Assembly (NCBI GenBank): GCA_015059545.1
Contig: SVAG01000003.1
Span: forward strand, 62,001 to 126,000
DNA length: 64,000 bases
Reading direction: 5' to 3'
DNA from: Lactobacillales bacterium
GTDB taxonomy: Bacteria; Bacillota_I; Bacilli_A; RF39; UBA660
Part shown: positions 44,027 through 55,534 of the stretch, in pieces
Layout: every line of letters starts with the position of its first letter
Numbering within the stretch: the first letter of the stretch is position 1
The notes under the pieces: model-generated
What the model was told of the DNA's origin: nothing
Database searches by the model: none
What the model saw: only the letters and a program-made list of their open reading frames with translations
Translations under genes and position numbers: made by a program

Positions 44027-44073
44027 AAAAAATCTCTTTTTGTATCATAAAAGATATGAAAGGAGATTTTTTT
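44027..44073 (+). promoter_or_regulatory. Hairpin sequestering the sigG ribosome-binding site (or terminator)
   Basis: AAAAAATCTC (44027-44036) pairs with GAGATTTTTT (44063-44072), which contains the end of the AAAGGAGA site and the spacer before ATG 44074. An inner TATC/GATA stem (44043-44046 with 44053-44056) shortens the loop. It could terminate the hydrolase transcript and, when transcribed through, hide the ribosome-binding site. A leader hairpin limiting sigG translation is known in B. subtilis. Confidence 0.6.
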
Positions 44074-44850
44074 ATGTCACGTAACAAAGTAGAAATTTGT
44101 AACGTGAATACTGCGAATATTAAGGTTTTAACTAATGAAGAAATGACTATCCTTTTTAAAAAATTAAAAGATGGTGATTTAAGTGCTAAAGAAGAATTAA
44201 TAAATGGTAATTTAAAATTAGTTTTATCTATTTTAAAAAAATATAATAATAGAGTAGATAATATGGATGACTTATTTCAAGTAGGATGTATTGGACTTAT
44301 AAAAGCAATAGATAATTTTGATTTAAAATTTGATGTTAAATTTTCTACATATGCAGTTCCTATGATATTAGGTGAAGTTAGAAGATATTTAAGAGATTCA
44401 TCTAGTATTAGAGTAGCCCGTAGTATAAAAGATACAGCATATAAAATAATGAAATTAAAAGAAGAATTAACTAATAAATTAGGTAAAGAACCTAGTATTA
44501 AAATGATATCAGAAAAACTTGGAATAACTGAATTTGAAGTTGCTAATGCTATGGATGCTATGAAAGATACAGTTAGTATGTTTGAACCTATTTATAATGA
44601 TGGTGGGGATACAATATATTTAGAAGATCAATTAGATGATAAAAGTAATAATATGTATTCATTAGATATGAAAATATCATTAAAAGATGCTTTAAATAAA
44701 TTAAAAGAAAAAGAAAAATATATATTAATTGAAAGATATATAACAGGTAAAACACAACTTGAACTTGCAGAAGAAATTGGAATATCACAAGCTCAAATAT
44801 CAAGATTAGAAAAAAGTGGATTAGAAAATATAAAAAAAATGATTAATTAA
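44074..44850 (+). CDS. sigG: Forespore sigma factor SigG
   Basis: SigG directs late forespore transcription. The N-terminus MSRNKVEICNV is the SigG hallmark (B. subtilis has MSRNKVEICGV). Region 2 reads NGNLKLVLSI, DDLFQVGCIGLIKAIDNFD and FSTYAVPMILGEVRRYLRD. Region 4 ends with KTQLELAEEIGISQAQISRL. Length is 258 residues from ATG 44074; an in-frame ATG at 44056 is upstream of the AAAGGAGA site and is rejected. It is not next to sigE/spoIIGA, unlike in Bacillus. I see no clear sigma-F promoter immediately upstream. Confidence 0.95.
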   Translation: MSRNKVEICNVNTANIKVLTNEEMTILFKKLKDGDLSAKEELINGNLKLVLSILKKYNNRVDNMDDLFQVGCIGLIKAIDNFDLKFDVKFSTYAVPMILGEVRRYLRDSSSIRVARSIKDTAYKIMKLKEELTNKLGKEPSIKMISEKLGITEFEVANAMDAMKDTVSMFEPIYNDGGDTIYLEDQLDDKSNNMYSLDMKISLKDALNKLKEKEKYILIERYITGKTQLELAEEIGISQAQISRLEKSGLENIKKMIN

Positions 44851-44907: not shown

Positions 44908-46437
44908 ATGAATAATAATCAAAATCAATTTAATAGTTCAAATAATAATCAAAATTTATATGGTAATAATAGCCAAACAACAACTAACAACGTTAATTTA
45001 AACAATGTACAACCACAATACAATAGTGCACAACAACAGTATAATAATATGAATACTGTTCAACCACAATATAATACAAATACTATAAATAATTCAAATA
45101 ATGTTCAACAAAATAATAGTATGCAACCACAATACAATAATTTAAATACTAATCAATCTCAACAAAATACCAATTTAAGTGGTTTACAACAACAATATAG
45201 TAATAATATTAATACACAACAAACATCTAATAATTTAAATACTGTGCAATCACAATATAATAGTAGTAATATAAATACTAATTTTAATCAACAAACTATA
45301 CCAAATGATAATGTTGTGAAACCAACATCAAGTTTTGAACCTTTAAATTCAAATGATAATAACTCAAATAATGATTCAAATAATAATTTTTCTAAAAAAA
45401 ATAACAATAAATTTATTCCTATAATTATTATTGCACTAGTTGTAATAGTAGGTATTATTTTATTAGTTAGTCTTTTAAATAAAAAAAATAATGATGTAAA
45501 TAAAGAAAATAAAGGTACAGCAACTGAAAATATTAATAGTAGTGGATTTGTTACAATGGCATTTTCAAAAGGGAAATATTTTATTGGGTTAACAGCTGAT
45601 GGAAATATTTATCAAATAGGAAAGTTAAATTATGGTGGACAAGAATATAAAACGACTACTAAAATAGCTTCTAATGTAAAAAAAGCTTATTTTGGAAATT
45701 ATAATTTATATATAAATAACAAAAATGAAGTATATCATATGGGGTTAGGATTAAATGGTGGAACTTCAAAAGAATTTAAAAAAATATTTGATAATGCTAA
45801 AGATGTAACAACAAACGGTTTTACTGTATTTGTTGTTGATAATAATAATAACCTTTATGTAAGACATAATCCATTTGGTAAATCTTTTGCTTGCGGATTT
45901 AAAGAATATTATACATCTGAATTTGTTAAGGTTAAAGAAAGTGTAAAAGCTGCATATCCAGGAACGTCAAATTATTATTACATTACATTAGATAACAAAT
46001 TATATGTAAATAATGGAACTACTGATGAATTAATTATGGAAAATGTAAAAGAAATTAATGATTATTCATATGGTTCAAAAATTATAATAATAGATAATAA
46101 TAATACAGCACATCAATATAATAATCAAACAAAACAAGTTACTAAATTGTTAGATAATATAATTAAATCAGATGGTTATTATATGATTGATAAAAATCAT
46201 AATGCTTATAAAATTAATGAACGTAGTGAAACAGGTGAATTTAGTAAAATTGAAGAAATTATGAATGTATCTTACATTATAAAACATGGTAAATATACAA
46301 AATTAAAAGCACCTCATAACACTTATGTACTAGCAAAATATATAGGAACTGATGGAAAAATCCATATTTATTTAGATGGTAAAGATAATACATACACAGT
46401 TAAAAATCTTGATGATATATTAAAATTTGATGTATAA
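44908..46437 (+). CDS. Asn/Gln-rich membrane protein with RCC1/propeller-like repeats
   Basis: The first 150 residues are Asn, Gln, Ser and Tyr with repeated VQPQYN or similar units, a prion-like low-complexity segment placed in the cytoplasm. One membrane helix follows (FIPIIIIALVVIVGIILLVSLL, about residues 170-192). The outside part has repeats of about 45 residues with a GLTADGNIYQIG or VVDNNNNLYVR pattern, reminiscent of RCC1-type propellers. Length is 509 residues. It has its own strong promoter and terminator. Function is unknown. Confidence 0.7.
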   Translation: MNNNQNQFNSSNNNQNLYGNNSQTTTNNVNLNNVQPQYNSAQQQYNNMNTVQPQYNTNTINNSNNVQQNNSMQPQYNNLNTNQSQQNTNLSGLQQQYSNNINTQQTSNNLNTVQSQYNSSNINTNFNQQTIPNDNVVKPTSSFEPLNSNDNNSNNDSNNNFSKKNNNKFIPIIIIALVVIVGIILLVSLLNKKNNDVNKENKGTATENINSSGFVTMAFSKGKYFIGLTADGNIYQIGKLNYGGQEYKTTTKIASNVKKAYFGNYNLYINNKNEVYHMGLGLNGGTSKEFKKIFDNAKDVTTNGFTVFVVDNNNNLYVRHNPFGKSFACGFKEYYTSEFVKVKESVKAAYPGTSNYYYITLDNKLYVNNGTTDELIMENVKEINDYSYGSKIIIIDNNNTAHQYNNQTKQVTKLLDNIIKSDGYYMIDKNHNAYKINERSETGEFSKIEEIMNVSYIIKHGKYTKLKAPHNTYVLAKYIGTDGKIHIYLDGKDNTYTVKNLDDILKFDV

Positions 46438-47837: not shown

Positions 47838-48857
47838 ATGCAAGATAGAATAAATAAATTAATATGGTTAATAGTTATAATACTTATTATTATATTTGGA
47901 ATATTATTTATAAAAAATAAAAATATAAAAAAAGAATATACTTCTAAATTCTATTATATGGATACATATATACATGTAAAAGTATATAGTGATGATTTTG
48001 AAAAAGCTAATAAAGCATTAAAAGAAGTAGAAAAAATGTATAAAGAGTATCATGAATTAACTGATAGATATAATAGTTATGACAAAATTAATAATTTATA
48101 TTATATAAGAAATAATGAATCAGATGATGAATATATAAAAATAGATAAAAGATTATACGAAATTTTAGAATATGGAAAAGATGCTTATGAAAAAACAGAT
48201 GGATTAGTTAATATAAGTATGGGAAATGTTATTGATGTTTGGAAAAAATATCGTGATAATAAAAATGGAATACCTAGTAAAAAAGAACTAAAAAAATCTA
48301 ATACAGAAGATATTGATGATATTATTTTAAAAGATGGTAATAAAATTAAAAATAATCATGTTAATATAGATTTAGGTTCTATATCTAAAGGATATACAAC
48401 ACAAAAAGTTGGAGAATATTTAGATAAAATTGGAATTACTGAATATTTGATAAATGCTGGTGGTAATGTATTAGTTGGTAAACATTATGAAGATTCTAAT
48501 TATAAAATAGGTATTGAAGATCCAAATAATAAAAATGATATTTTTACTGTATTAAAAGGTAATAATATATCAGTTGTAACAAGTGGAGGATATGAAAGAT
48601 ATTACGAATATGAAGATAAAAAATATCATCATATAATAAGTCCTAAAACATTATATCCAACAGATTATATGAAAAGTGTTACTGTAATTACTAAAGATAG
48701 TGCACTTGCTGATATGCTATCTACATATTTGTTCTTATTGAGTATAGAAGATGGTAAAGATTATATAAATAATTTAGAAGATGTAGAAGCTATATGGTAT
48801 ACAAATGATGATGAAATAGTTTTATCAGATGGTGCTAAAAAATATGTTCATAAATAA
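47838..48857 (+). CDS. apbE: FAD:protein FMN transferase (ApbE)
   Basis: ApbE attaches FMN from FAD to a Thr or Ser of exported flavoproteins. An N-terminal helix (LIWLIVIILIIIFGILFI) anchors it outside the membrane; there is no lipobox. Family motifs are YYMDTYIHVKVY, DLGSISKGYTTQKVGEYLD, LINAGGNVLVGK and DSALADMLSTYLFLL with metal-binding Asp. Length is 339 residues. It leads a four-gene cluster that also encodes a possible FMN-binding acceptor lipoprotein. Confidence 0.93.
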   Translation: MQDRINKLIWLIVIILIIIFGILFIKNKNIKKEYTSKFYYMDTYIHVKVYSDDFEKANKALKEVEKMYKEYHELTDRYNSYDKINNLYYIRNNESDDEYIKIDKRLYEILEYGKDAYEKTDGLVNISMGNVIDVWKKYRDNKNGIPSKKELKKSNTEDIDDIILKDGNKIKNNHVNIDLGSISKGYTTQKVGEYLDKIGITEYLINAGGNVLVGKHYEDSNYKIGIEDPNNKNDIFTVLKGNNISVVTSGGYERYYEYEDKKYHHIISPKTLYPTDYMKSVTVITKDSALADMLSTYLFLLSIEDGKDYINNLEDVEAIWYTNDDEIVLSDGAKKYVHK

Positions 48858-49203
48858 AAAAGATAAGATATTAATTATTAGTTTATTACTTATATCTTTA
48901 TTTAGTATATTAATACTAAATTTAAATCAAAAACAAGGTAATATAGCGTATGTATATCATGATAATAAACTTTTAAAAAAAGTGGATTTAAATATAAATA
49001 AAACATATACTTTTGATGGAGATAAAGGTAAAGTAATAGTAACTGTTAAAAATAAAAAAATCAAAGTAGATAAAGAAACTAGTGAATATCACTTATGTTC
49101 TAAAATGGGATATATAAGTAGACCGCATGAAACAATTATATGTTTGCCTAATAAAATAGTAATTGAAATTGGTGGTAATGAAGTAGATACAGTGGTGAGA
49201 TAA
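48844..49203 (+). CDS. NusG domain II-containing membrane-anchored protein
   Basis: An N-terminal helix (ILIISLLLISLFSILILNL) precedes one beta-barrel domain of about 85 residues with EYHLCSKMGYISRPHETIICLPNKIVIEI, the NusG_II signature split around the two Cys. Length is 119 residues from ATG 48844; ATG 48829 is an alternative. It overlaps the end of apbE, and its stop overlaps the next start (TAATG). Such proteins travel with Gx transporters and FMN-binding lipoproteins; the Listeria EetA protein may be similar. Confidence 0.8.
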   Translation: MFINKKDKILIISLLLISLFSILILNLNQKQGNIAYVYHDNKLLKKVDLNINKTYTFDGDKGKVIVTVKNKKIKVDKETSEYHLCSKMGYISRPHETIICLPNKIVIEIGGNEVDTVVR

Positions 49204-49697
49204 TGGATATAAGAAAAACAATTAATTTTTCAATGTTACTTGCTTTATCAGTTGTATTAAGTATATTTGAAAGTTTAATTCCTATTATAAACGGAAGTAT
49301 ACCAGGTTTAAAATTAGGATTTGCTAATATAGTAATATTATTTATACTTTATAGATACAAATTTAAAGATGCTATATATTTATCAATATTAAGAGTTATA
49401 TTAGTTGCTCTTTTAAGAACAGGTTTTGGTATTAATTTTATCTTTAGTTTAGTAGGTGCTATACTTTCTGTATCGGCAATGTTTATATTTAAAAAATTAA
49501 AATTTTCTATTATAACAGTAAGTGTTATGGGATCAATTTTTCATATAATAGGTCAAATTATAACAACAATTATTTTATTAGATACATTTAATTTAATATA
49601 TTATTTACCATATCTTATTATATTTAGTGTAATTACAGGATTTATAATTGGTGTAATTACAAATGAAATATTAGAAAGAACAAAAGAAATTATATAG
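49203..49697 (+). CDS. Gx transporter family membrane protein
   Basis: Five or six membrane helices make up the 164-residue product. The family signature is SIFESLIPIINGSIPGLKLG with FANIVILFILYRY, and a conserved RTGFGINFIFSLVGAILS. The group was long mislabelled heptaprenyl diphosphate synthase component I and looks like an ECF-type substrate-binding membrane protein. In Listeria a similar protein (EetB) supports flavin-based electron export. It is coupled to its neighbours by one-base and 8-nt spacing. Confidence 0.87.
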   Translation: MDIRKTINFSMLLALSVVLSIFESLIPIINGSIPGLKLGFANIVILFILYRYKFKDAIYLSILRVILVALLRTGFGINFIFSLVGAILSVSAMFIFKKLKFSIITVSVMGSIFHIIGQIITTIILLDTFNLIYYLPYLIIFSVITGFIIGVITNEILERTKEII

Positions 49698-49705
49698 GAG
49701 GAAAT

Positions 49706-50170
49706 ATGAAAAAAATTATAATTAGTTTAATTTGTTTAATAAGTTTAACAGGATGTGAAAAAATAGTAGAAGGTGATTATAAAGAAGGAACATATATGGG
49801 TAGTGATGTATATACTTCTTATGGAAAACAATATGTAACAACTTCAGTTATTTATGTAGATAGTAATGGTGCTATTAAATCATGTTTTATAGATTCAACA
49901 TATGTACAAAATAATGTTAATACTACTAAAAAAACATTGGGAGATGCTTATGCTATGAAAGAAACTTCTAAAAATATAGGAGTTATACCAGGTGGAGCTG
50001 AATGGTATGAACAAGTTAAGGTTATTGAAGATAAAGTAGTAGAAAATCAAGGATTAAACTGGGTTAAATATGATGAAACAGGTACTAAATTAGATGGAGT
50101 ATCAGGAGTTACTATAACAGTTGATTCATATATAAGAGCAACTTCTAAAGCACTTGAACAAGCAAAATAA
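49706..50170 (+). CDS. FMN-binding domain lipoprotein
   Basis: The signal ends in lipobox LTGC (Cys17). The body is one FMN-binding domain: VEGDYKEGTYMGSDVYTSYG, then DGVSGVTITVDSYIRA. The flavinylation motif is normally (S/T)GA(S/T)x(S/T); here it reads SGVTIT, with Val in place of Ala and Thr available as the acceptor. Length is 154 residues. It is last in the apbE operon, so ApbE is its likely modifier. It resembles a single-domain version of Listeria PplA. Confidence 0.87.
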   Translation: MKKIIISLICLISLTGCEKIVEGDYKEGTYMGSDVYTSYGKQYVTTSVIYVDSNGAIKSCFIDSTYVQNNVNTTKKTLGDAYAMKETSKNIGVIPGGAEWYEQVKVIEDKVVENQGLNWVKYDETGTKLDGVSGVTITVDSYIRATSKALEQAK

Positions 50171-50191
50171 AGCGTAAAGTTTTATTTTTTT
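50165..50191 (+). terminator. Intrinsic terminator of the flavin operon
   Basis: AAATAAAGC (50165-50173), loop GTAAA, GTTTTATTT (50179-50187), one G-T pair, then Ts. The stop codon is inside the 5' arm. Confidence 0.75.
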
Positions 50192-50193
50192 GT

Positions 50194-50222
50194 TTGTGAT
50201 AATGAATTGTTTATGTTATACT
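50194..50222 (+). promoter_or_regulatory. Promoter of prepilin-like gene
   Basis: TTGTGA (50194-50199), 17-bp spacer, TATACT (50217-50222) preceded by TG-T. The leader TATAGAATAGGAG is shared with the 44908 gene. Confidence 0.7.
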
Positions 50223-50247: not shown

Positions 50248-51801
50248 ATGAAAAAAAAAGGATTTACATTAATAGAACTTTTAGCAGTTATAGTAATACT
50301 AGCTATAATAGCACTAATAGCGACACCTATTATATTAAATATGATAGAAAATGCTAGAAAGAGTGCAGCTGCAGATAGTGCATATGGATATATTGAAGCT
50401 ATAGAGTATAATAATAGTATGGCAGATTTAGGAATAAATAATAATTATACAAAAATAACAGATGGTAAAGATTTAGATGTAACAGGATTAGATGTAAAAG
50501 TAAAAGGAACAAAACCATCAAGTGGAGTAGTTACAATATCAAAAGGAAGAGTAGCAGCAGCAAATTTATGTGTTGACGGATTTTCGGTAATATATAATGG
50601 AGAAAAAGTAACAGAAGTTACTAAGGGTAATGAATGTGCAAGTAGTACATCAAAAGAAGAAACTGTTTATAAAGATTATGAAATAGGTGAATTAGTATGG
50701 TTTGATCCAGTAGGTTATAAATATTGTAAAGAAGGGGAAAATAATTGCTATTCTTGGATAGTATTAAATAATAATAAAGAAAAACGTAATTTAGATTTAA
50801 TTTATGCTAAAGATGAAAATTCATTAAAGTGGAGTAAAGATTTATTAACAGTTTTAAATGAATATACATCTTCTTGGAATGATAAGTTGTTTGTAGATTA
50901 TAACTATAATCTTGAAACATATTTTGATTATAGTAATTCAAAAGCTAGAATTCCATTAGTGTCTGAAATGAGTGACGCAATTCATAAAAAATTAAATGAC
51001 AATGGTAGTTGTGCTGATAGTTCAAATTCTTGTGTAATGGCTAATATAGGTACAGGTAAAATGACTCGTTTTTGGTATGAGGATTCAGAAATAAATTCAG
51101 GTGATATGATGGAGTTTCAATATATTTCACCTATTCCAAATTATTATATACATCCAGTTATAAATATAGGTTCTGAAAAAAATGCTACCCCAGAAGAAAT
51201 ATATGTTAGTCAAAGAAAAGATAAATATGAAAATGGGGATATAATATATTTGAATCCTAAAGATTTACAAGAGGAATGTACTGCCAAAAATTCTAAAAAT
51301 GAAAAAGGAAAAACAGAAGGATGTATGAAATGGTATGCATTCTTAGATAGTAAAGATAATTCTAAGGTTAAATTACTTTTGGCTCATAATACAACAGCAA
51401 CAACATGCTATAATTCTGTGTCGACTGAATTAAATAAATTAAAATGGAATTTAAATGAAAGAGTAATAAAAGCAGATGAAGTTGCACAAATTATTGATGT
51501 AAAAACATTTAATAGTTCAACATCATCATCTAGAGATTACTTCCATTTTGATGTAAACGATGAACCAAAAGAAAAATATGTATGGCTATTTGATTATTCA
51601 AATGGTTGTGATGCTTATGGCTGTAAAAATACAGAATATAGTACACAGGGTTATTGGACAAGCGAACAACCAGCTAATGAAAAAGATAATTATGCTTGGG
51701 CTGTAAGCAGTTTAGGTTTTATAAACTATTATGGTCTTGGTGTATGTGATATCGTTGGTGTTCGTCCAGTAATAGAAATAGAAAGATCATTAATTAAATA
51801 A
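50248..51801 (+). CDS. Prepilin-like protein with DUF6273-like C-terminal domain
   Basis: The class III signal is MKKKGFTLIELLAVIVILAI with cleavage after Gly5 and Glu5 in the mature chain. A short pilin stalk follows (SAYGYIEAIEYNNSMADLG). After residue 130 two Cys-containing modules appear (GELVWFDPVGYKYCKEG and GDIIYLNPKDLQEEC). The end, YWTSEQPANEKDNYAWAVSS through GVRPVIEIE, resembles DUF6273 domains of low-GC bacterial surface proteins. Length is 517 residues. It may be a tip or minor pilin presenting a binding domain. Confidence 0.78.
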   Translation: MKKKGFTLIELLAVIVILAIIALIATPIILNMIENARKSAAADSAYGYIEAIEYNNSMADLGINNNYTKITDGKDLDVTGLDVKVKGTKPSSGVVTISKGRVAAANLCVDGFSVIYNGEKVTEVTKGNECASSTSKEETVYKDYEIGELVWFDPVGYKYCKEGENNCYSWIVLNNNKEKRNLDLIYAKDENSLKWSKDLLTVLNEYTSSWNDKLFVDYNYNLETYFDYSNSKARIPLVSEMSDAIHKKLNDNGSCADSSNSCVMANIGTGKMTRFWYEDSEINSGDMMEFQYISPIPNYYIHPVINIGSEKNATPEEIYVSQRKDKYENGDIIYLNPKDLQEECTAKNSKNEKGKTEGCMKWYAFLDSKDNSKVKLLLAHNTTATTCYNSVSTELNKLKWNLNERVIKADEVAQIIDVKTFNSSTSSSRDYFHFDVNDEPKEKYVWLFDYSNGCDAYGCKNTEYSTQGYWTSEQPANEKDNYAWAVSSLGFINYYGLGVCDIVGVRPVIEIERSLIK

Positions 51802-54109: not shown

Positions 54110-54135
54110 AAAGACACTTAATAGTGTCTTTTAAA
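54108..54135. terminator. Bidirectional terminator
   Basis: AAAAAGACACT (54108-54118), loop TAAT, AGTGTCTTTT (54123-54132), with T-runs on both strands. Confidence 0.88.
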
Positions 54136-55534
54136 ATTGTATATCGATTGTATCTAAATCTTTTAATATATCATTAACATTTATCATGTTATTTTTAATT
54201 TTTTCTTCTGTTGAAACATTTTTATTTATTTCTTCAGTTTTTGTAGGTGGAGTTATATTTGCTACTTCTTCTTTTTCAGCACTATGATTACTTATATTTG
54301 TTAAATCTAAAGCATCTTTTAAACTTGATTCTCCTTCAGTTGATTTATCATCATTATCTAATTCTATTATTTTTAATATTTCTTCAACTGTTGTTTCACC
54401 ATTTGCTACTTTTTCTAAACCATCTTGAAGTAGGGTATTAACATCACTACTATAAACTAATTTTCTTAATTTATCTTTTCTAAGATTACTACTAATAGCA
54501 TCTTTTATTTCTTGATTAACTAATAATACTTCATGGATAGCTATACGACCTTTATAACCATTTGAACATTCTTCGCATCCTTCAGTAGTGTATATTTCTT
54601 CAACATCTTTATTTAAAACTTTTTTAAATAGATCTTTTTCATATTCATTTGTTTGTCTTTTTGTTTTACAGTTTGGACATAATTTTCTAGCTAATTTTTG
54701 TGATACAATTCCTGTTAAAGCACTTGAGAGTAGGTATCTTTCAACATCCATATCTAATAAACGTTCAATTGTATTAAGTGAGTTATTGGTGTGGATTGTA
54801 GATAATACTAAGTGTCCTGTAATAGAAGCACGAACAGCTATTTTAGCAGTTTCTGTATCACGAATTTCCCCAATCATTATAATATTAGGGTCTTGACGTA
54901 AGATAGAACGTAGTGCATTAGCAAATGTAAGACCAATTTCACTGTTTGTTTGTACTTGGTTAACACCTTCAATATTCATTTCTATTGGGTCTTCAACTGT
55001 AATAATATTAGTGTCTTCTTTATTTAGTCTTTGTAATACAGAGTATACTGTAGTAGATTTCCCAGATCCAGTAGCACCTGTTACTAAAATAATACCATTT
55101 GGAGCTGAAATCATTTTTACTATTTTTTCATAATTTTCGTCTGTAAATCCTAAAGATTCAAGTCCAGCTTGACTCATTGTATAATCCAAGATACGGACAA
55201 CTATTTTTTCTCCATTTATAGTAGGTAAGCAAGATACACGAAGATCTAAATCAATATTTTGTAATGTTGTTTTAATAGCACCATCTTGTGGTAATCTTGA
55301 TTCAGTTATATTCATACCTGATATAATTTTAATACGTGTTATTAAGTTCTTTTTAATATCATTAGGAACTTCAGCATAATCTATTAAAGCACCATCTATA
55401 CGTATTCTAATTAACATGAAATTTTCATGTGGGTCAAAGTGAATATCACTCGCATTTCTTTTACTACTATCAACTAATATTTCATTTACTATTTCAACTA
55501 CAGGGATTTTATCAAAATCAAATTTTTTTAACAT
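54131..55534 (-). CDS. PilB/GspE-type assembly ATPase
   Basis: This hexameric ATPase powers type IV pilus or type II secretion fibre extension. The second N-terminal domain is present (ASDIHFDPHENFMLIRIRID), but the first MshEN/N1 domain is missing. Walker A is GATGSGKST, the Asp box ITVEDPIEMNIEGVNQ, Walker B DPNIIMIGEIRDTETA, and the His box STIHTNN. The zinc motif has CPNC and CEECSNGYKGR. A low-complexity acidic tail extends from about residue 395. Length is 467 residues. It is divergent from two prepilin genes. PilC and the prepilin peptidase are not in this window. Confidence 0.93.
   Translation of the reverse strand: MLKKFDFDKIPVVEIVNEILVDSSKRNASDIHFDPHENFMLIRIRIDGALIDYAEVPNDIKKNLITRIKIISGMNITESRLPQDGAIKTTLQNIDLDLRVSCLPTINGEKIVVRILDYTMSQAGLESLGFTDENYEKIVKMISAPNGIILVTGATGSGKSTTVYSVLQRLNKEDTNIITVEDPIEMNIEGVNQVQTNSEIGLTFANALRSILRQDPNIIMIGEIRDTETAKIAVRASITGHLVLSTIHTNNSLNTIERLLDMDVERYLLSSALTGIVSQKLARKLCPNCKTKRQTNEYEKDLFKKVLNKDVEEIYTTEGCEECSNGYKGRIAIHEVLLVNQEIKDAISSNLRKDKLRKLVYSSDVNTLLQDGLEKVANGETTVEEILKIIELDNDDKSTEGESSLKDALDLTNISNHSAEKEEVANITPPTKTEEINKNVSTEEKIKNNMINVNDILKDLDTIDIQF

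Follow-up and report, generated by a model that had tools for sequence, protein, structure and literature searches.

The window, meaning the whole stretch of 64,000 nucleotides that was analysed, carries four open reading frames on one strand at 47838-50170. As an earlier note on this DNA had proposed, apbE, a NusG_II gene, a Gx transporter gene and the gene of an FMN-binding lipoprotein form one tight operon here. The features are as follows:

47838..48857, plus strand: apbE, encoding a membrane-anchored FAD:protein FMN transferase of 339 aa (Pfam ApbE, E 6e-68)
48829..49203, plus strand: gene of an EetA-like NusG_II domain protein, a small membrane-anchored accessory of 124 aa (PF07009, E 3e-27)
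49203..49697, plus strand: gene of a Gx transporter, an EetB-like ECF substrate-binding subunit and predicted FAD exporter of 164 aa (PF07456, E 2e-35)
49706..50170, plus strand: gene of an FMN-bind2-like single-domain lipoprotein (the carrier) of 154 aa, with lipid-bearing Cys17 and predicted flavin site Thr136 (alignment, 2KZX profile match)
50154..50196, plus strand: terminator-like stem-loop with a T-run at the operon end (fold -12.4 kcal/mol, z -3.8)

The NusG_II frame overlaps apbE and is itself overlapped by the Gx frame by 1 base, while 8 bases, with AGGAGG ahead of the lipoprotein gene, separate Gx from the last gene. The stem-loop and T-run behind the lipoprotein gene make an operon end there plausible; the structure was absent from the output of a GC-based terminator scan, which is uninformative in AT-rich DNA. 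The identical gene order was seen in dozens of related genomes, which excludes a chance arrangement, and in almost every related locus the NusG_II gene adjoins apbE and Gx. The Pfam searches bore out the gene identities assigned earlier (ApbE, EetA-like, EetB-like and flavin lipoprotein), the last of these through its homologues and 2KZX. Direct reading of the ApbE sequence showed an N-terminal hydrophobic anchor and the stretches DLGSISKGY, HHIISPKT and ADMLST. The reading frames at the locus include neither ndh2 nor DMK genes, again as claimed. Elsewhere in the window we observed a sigma-F/G-like factor gene (44056-44850), a 509-aa protein (44908-46437) that has no Pfam match and whose long N-terminus, rich in Asn and Gln, precedes a TM helix, immediately 3' of the operon a 517-aa protein bearing a prepilin-type N-methylation signal (50248-51801), and a type II/IV secretion ATPase gene (54131-55534).

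The carrier has the lipobox LTGC, with Cys17, and the flavin motif DGVSGVTIT. Its match to Pfam FMN_bind was weak (E 0.0014, 19.7 bits, below the gathering cut-off of 22), apparently because of an insertion: the alignment places 71 residues onto 43 profile positions. FMN_bind matched 23 of 27 carrier homologues, several of them above the gathering score, and a profile of the 27 homologues matched the solved structure 2KZX over the full domain (E 9e-14). In the alignment of these 27 sequences, C17, W100, D130 and T136 are invariant. The AlphaFold model of the carrier has a pLDDT of 89, and a Foldseek comparison of this model with the PDB returned nothing useful, all E values being above 0.1. 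FMN-bind2 proteins (PMC10979944) and 2KZX share with the carrier a domain of ~150-160 aa and an insertion relative to Pfam FMN_bind, but multi-domain FMN-bind2 members usually have 2 or 4 domains, whereas the carrier has one. FMN-bind2 domains tend to pair up in multi-domain proteins (PMC10979944); since the carrier fits FMN-bind2 in size, it plausibly works as a homodimer. Other Bacilli have tandem pairs of carrier genes or one apparent two-domain protein of ~300 aa (L215, L219, L221; L217, L218, L222), an arrangement that fits FMN-bind2 domains working in pairs. The lipoprotein signal peptidase gene lspA lies at or just 3' of the carrier gene in many relatives (L080, L083, L087, L089, L090, L092, L099 and others). 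A carrier match in genome G070 (E 7e-4, 29% identity) proved to be spurious on reading of the sequence.

The predicted flavin-accepting Thr is present in 70/70 carriers and the motif Asp in 69/70. At the position of the motif Ala of FMN-bind2 proteins, carriers have mostly V or C (V 38, C 28, A 3, F 1), and the motif Gly is retained in 53/70 and lost in 17/70. The earlier description of a single-domain carrier with SGVTIT in place of SGAT was confirmed, with the qualification that SGVT is the family norm, Ala being found in just 3 of the 70. As Val is usual at this position across the carriers, SGVT is a family trait and no defect of the protein in the window. An Ala-to-Val exchange in the flavinylation motif leaves ~50% of flavinylation (PMC12052999). 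Judged from the sequences, SGVT is no argument against flavinylation of the carrier.

We searched the host genome (1.19 Mb, 11 contigs, 93% complete, which leaves some scope for missed genes) with Pfam profiles. The results showed a single ApbE match genome-wide, the apbE of the operon, and, besides the carrier, just one other FMN-bind protein, an RnfD-RnfG fusion of 471 aa on contig C11. The rnf cluster on this contig consists of rnfC, rnfDG, rnfE, rnfA, a 43-aa Cys-rich membrane ORF and an 89-aa rnfB, and the operon lies on a different contig (C2). The fusion has flavinylation sites in both parts, DTVSGATIS in RnfG and DTIGSATPL in RnfD. With one ApbE and an Rnf that has flavinylation sites in RnfD and RnfG, the operon ApbE must at least serve Rnf. 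RnfC combines Complex1_51K (NADH/FMN) and 4Fe-4S domains, which makes NADH the likely donor. The genome has just one EcfA-EcfA'-EcfT set, located away from the operon.

RnfB of the host (C11:160-429, minus strand) consists of a TM helix and one PF04060 [4Fe-4S] domain; domain search and alignment showed that the polyferredoxin C-terminal domain is lacking. Characterised RnfB proteins have two to seven [4Fe-4S] clusters in the polyferredoxin part (PMC12174285), and an RnfB without this part is a further departure from characterised Rnf. Short RnfB proteins of 83-96 aa were found in some 20 related genomes, and proteins of 105-106 aa in an Erysipelotrichaceae MAG and Peloplasma. An intact Rnf complex using this carrier had been named in the earlier note as evidence against its own reading; this holds in part, as Rnf is indeed present, with an RnfB that is unusually short. 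A separate ferredoxin gene beside rnfB was considered as a stand-in for the lost half, and none was seen in the loci of relatives that were inspected. In several loci (L012, 429-557 minus strand; L114, L109, L115, L119), a very small Cys-rich ORF of 43-56 aa with a single TM helix separates rnfA from the short rnfB, and the one at rnfA/rnfB in the host genome is PF12669-like.

The operon had been read as a minimal Listeria-type extracellular electron transfer (EET) locus. The Listeria locus (ndh2, dmkA/B, eetA, eetB, fmnA, fmnB, pplA), in which PplA has two FMN-bind domains, shares FmnB/ApbE, EetA, EetB and an FMN-bind lipoprotein with the host, but the host lacks Ndh2, the UbiA/DMK route and an adjoining FmnA, its carrier is single-domain, and it has Rnf. 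For ndh2 and DMK genes, whose search in the rest of the genome had been suggested, the results were negative in this 93% complete assembly. No match to the UbiA-type prenyltransferase profile (PF01040) was obtained in the host genome, the control being positive in 14/14 reference genomes, and 24 of the 27 carrier genomes likewise had no UbiA above the cut-off. The host matches to PF07992 (Pyr_redox_2) were TrxB, MnmG and three other FAD proteins, with no recognisable Ndh2 among them. Ndh2 in or near the cluster serves as the operational criterion of a Listeria-type EET system (PMC8238504). An EetB-type ECF-S subunit and ApbE were thus found, and Ndh2, DMK genes and a two-domain PplA-like carrier were not. 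Because Ndh2 and UbiA are lacking, we rejected membership in the Listeria type; the gene identities and a flavin carrier outside the cytosol are what stands of the EET-like reading.

EetB of Listeria (PF07456), an ECF-S subunit, binds FAD and exports it for flavinylation, deletion of Listeria eetA gives no EET phenotype, and eetB is co-localised with Rnf in 572 Clostridia genomes (PMC9973259). Given FAD export by EetB and the silent eetA deletion, three of the four operon genes are flavinylation machinery and not electron carriers. In the sister genome G030, rnf and the module lie on the same contig at a distance of ~19 kb. Of two Clostridia MAG loci obtained by the carrier search, one (L224) reads rnfC-D-G-E-A-B-NusG_II-Gx-carrier-ApbE, and in the other, on a shorter contig (L226), the quartet follows directly 3' of rnfB, with rnfA before. 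In Peloplasma aerotolerans (L294), apbE-NusG_II-Gx is located directly 3' of rnfB and is contiguous with the rnf genes. The Rnf-associated flavinylation modules of Clostridia (PMC9973259) have PF07456, NusG_II and ApbE in common with the operon, and the two Clostridia relatives have the FMN-bind lipoprotein too, directly 3' of rnfB. The host differs from them in that its module is unlinked from rnf, its rnfD and rnfG are fused, its RnfB has 89 aa, and its lipoprotein carries SGVT. The operon most probably belongs with the Rnf-associated flavinylation modules, to which it adds an extra single-domain FMN-bind2 lipoprotein.

Co-occurrence was assessed in 145 genomes of the same family. The carrier was found in 27 of them, RnfA/E in 28, fused RnfDG in 31 (recognised among the FMN-bind matches by the length of their open frames) and ApbE in 40. 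RnfDG was present in 26/27 carrier genomes versus 5/118 carrier-less genomes (Fisher 1e-22, a value that overstates the evidence because the family genomes are related). The one carrier genome without any Rnf, G072, is a fragmented MAG. Three Rnf genomes without the carrier (G059, G063, G093) retain apbE-NusG_II-Gx, which argues that this trio serves Rnf and that the carrier is an add-on. We regard service of the trio to Rnf as very probable. Sequence and co-occurrence together support the existence of the module, its connection with RnfDG and the lack of UbiA.

Four carrier genomes of the 145-genome sample lack RnfA/E, and three of these have rnfC-rnfDG with no rnfA/E/B after it (L228-L230), an arrangement referred to here as half-Rnf. 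In 50 further genomes, all 16 with a Gly-less carrier (S[RKTS]CT) were without a PF02508 match and had the RnfD domain (16/16). We read 14 loci of this set, 13 of which showed rnfC-rnfDG without rnfA/E/B, including one (L280) that breaks off shortly behind rnfDG and so does not show what follows; the 14th (G168, L287) keeps two RnfA/E-like genes. Half-Rnf clusters are those of L228-L230, L275-L286 and L288. The half-Rnf genomes, 20 distinct ones, fall in about three places on the ApbE-NusG_II-Gx tree, which points to about three separate origins. The carrier is kept in 20/20 of them and the whole operon in nearly all, on the available contig; G022 has the trio on one contig and the carrier on another. 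That rnfA/E/B are lost while rnfC-rnfDG and the carrier are retained hints, more strongly than any other observation, that RnfC-RnfDG-carrier functions as a unit in its own right. The motif Gly is lost in 16/20 half-Rnf carriers versus 0/39 carriers of genomes scored with RnfA/E, a scoring that rests on a search in nearly all cases and was assigned by default in the remaining ones. Another Gly-less carrier (L158) belongs to a genome unscored for RnfA/E. Smaller remnants were observed in G098 (L289) and G002 (L290), where rnfC is accompanied by an RnfD of 357-359 aa that has no RnfG domain; these two genomes have an orphan apbE, and the carrier is absent.

In electron route, the half-Rnf of the relatives resembles the Nqr/Rnf-like two-subunit complexes, for which a one-way flow from NAD(P)H to extracytosolic FMN-bind domains has been proposed (PMC8238504, PMC10979944). 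The two differ in composition: in the two-subunit systems, an RnfD-like protein and a PF00175 NAD-binding domain form one fused protein, whereas half-Rnf has a true RnfC and an RnfD-RnfG fusion. A literature search of limited scope found no description of half-Rnf or of an RnfB without polyferredoxin, and nothing direct on partial Rnf complexes or on EetB, ApbE and Rnf combined.

We propose, with a probability of roughly 0.6, that the operon is the flavinylation module of an Rnf-type complex plus one extra flavin lipoprotein that gives Rnf a quinone-free outlet. In the proposed mechanism, Gx/EetB would work with the general ECF ATPases and T subunit to move FAD across the membrane, and ApbE would transfer FMN from the exported FAD to Thr residues of the fused RnfD and RnfG and of the lipoprotein, with NusG_II in an assisting role. 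The lipid-anchored, one-flavin lipoprotein would then take electrons from the RnfG/RnfD flavins to an acceptor outside the cytosol. Electrons would pass from NADH (or ferredoxin) through Rnf, those of NADH by way of RnfC, RnfD and RnfG in turn, to the lipoprotein, with no quinone and no Ndh2. That the carrier is flavinylated, what reduces it and which way the electrons move are inferences; that the carrier is an Rnf electron outlet seems to us slightly favoured over its not being so. The S[RKTS]CT motif of the half-Rnf clade speaks against the outlet, as it represents further decay, and these carriers may hold covalent flavin weakly or not at all. The placement of rnf and operon on separate contigs of the host and the Rnf-less carrier genome G072, fragmented as it is, also count against the proposal. 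The search yielded no gene of an extracellular acceptor. The co-occurrence of carrier and Rnf could also reflect a common need for ApbE rather than direct electron exchange.

Among the other explanations, the one that survives best is that the operon does flavinylation housekeeping alone. The trio would then modify RnfD and RnfG, and the lipoprotein would be a minor or no-longer-flavinylated passenger, such as an Rnf lipoprotein with a role in structure or assembly. It would account for the loss of the motif Ala in 67/70 carriers and of Gly in 17/70, where RnfG is mostly SGAT-like, and for the carrier's being missing from some Rnf genomes. However, the near-complete conservation of Thr and Asp across the 70 carriers is a pattern expected solely for a site in use, and Val in place of Ala is tolerated experimentally (PMC12052999), so that we hold this explanation to be unlikely. 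Less probable still is a lipoprotein that feeds a dedicated extracytosolic fumarate- or urocanate-like reductase encoded elsewhere. ApbE substrates often serve such reductases (PMC8238504), and reduction of substrates of this kind had been suggested for the locus, but a reductase with an FMN-bind domain is absent from the genome, where a search covering such enzymes returned RnfDG and the carrier alone, and none adjoins the operon in the loci of relatives. A reduced Listeria-type EET, with an Ndh2/quinone pool elsewhere passing electrons through the lipoprotein to iron or other extracellular acceptors, is the least probable: the four shared gene families and the known case of a Lactiplantibacillus EET that needs nothing but externally supplied quinones (PMC10746273) would fit it, but the missing UbiA and Ndh2-like proteins, the one-domain carrier, and synteny and co-occurrence favouring Rnf speak against it.

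The outlet proposed for Rnf bears on a broader point, since current models tie Gram-positive flavin-based EET to Ndh2 and quinones. If true, a quinone-free route from RnfC-RnfDG to a flavin lipoprotein would explain how very small fermenters could dispose of electrons. A more tentative extension, which we consider possible at clearly less than even odds, is that in this lineage of uncultured Bacilli a ferredoxin-driven ion pump, Rnf, is evolving towards export of electrons without quinones. RnfB would first have lost its polyferredoxin half, and RnfA/E/B would then have disappeared in about three independent lines, leaving a path from NADH through RnfC and RnfD-G to the lipoprotein, with the operon in the window as its flavinylation kit and decay of the carrier motif as part of the change. 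Because relatives have lost RnfA/E/B naturally, the question can be tested by comparing full with half complexes. In addition, a single ApbE that would act on canonical SGAT and on altered SGVT, SGCT and S[RKT]CT sites is a natural system for testing how specific flavinylation is. A few family genomes (L231-L235, in G072, G129, G016, G041 and G116), some of them without Rnf, encode another small FMN-bind protein of ~95-132 aa, which is unrelated and carries SGAT-type motifs such as SGATVSS, SGTTVSS, AGATYSS and TGATASS.
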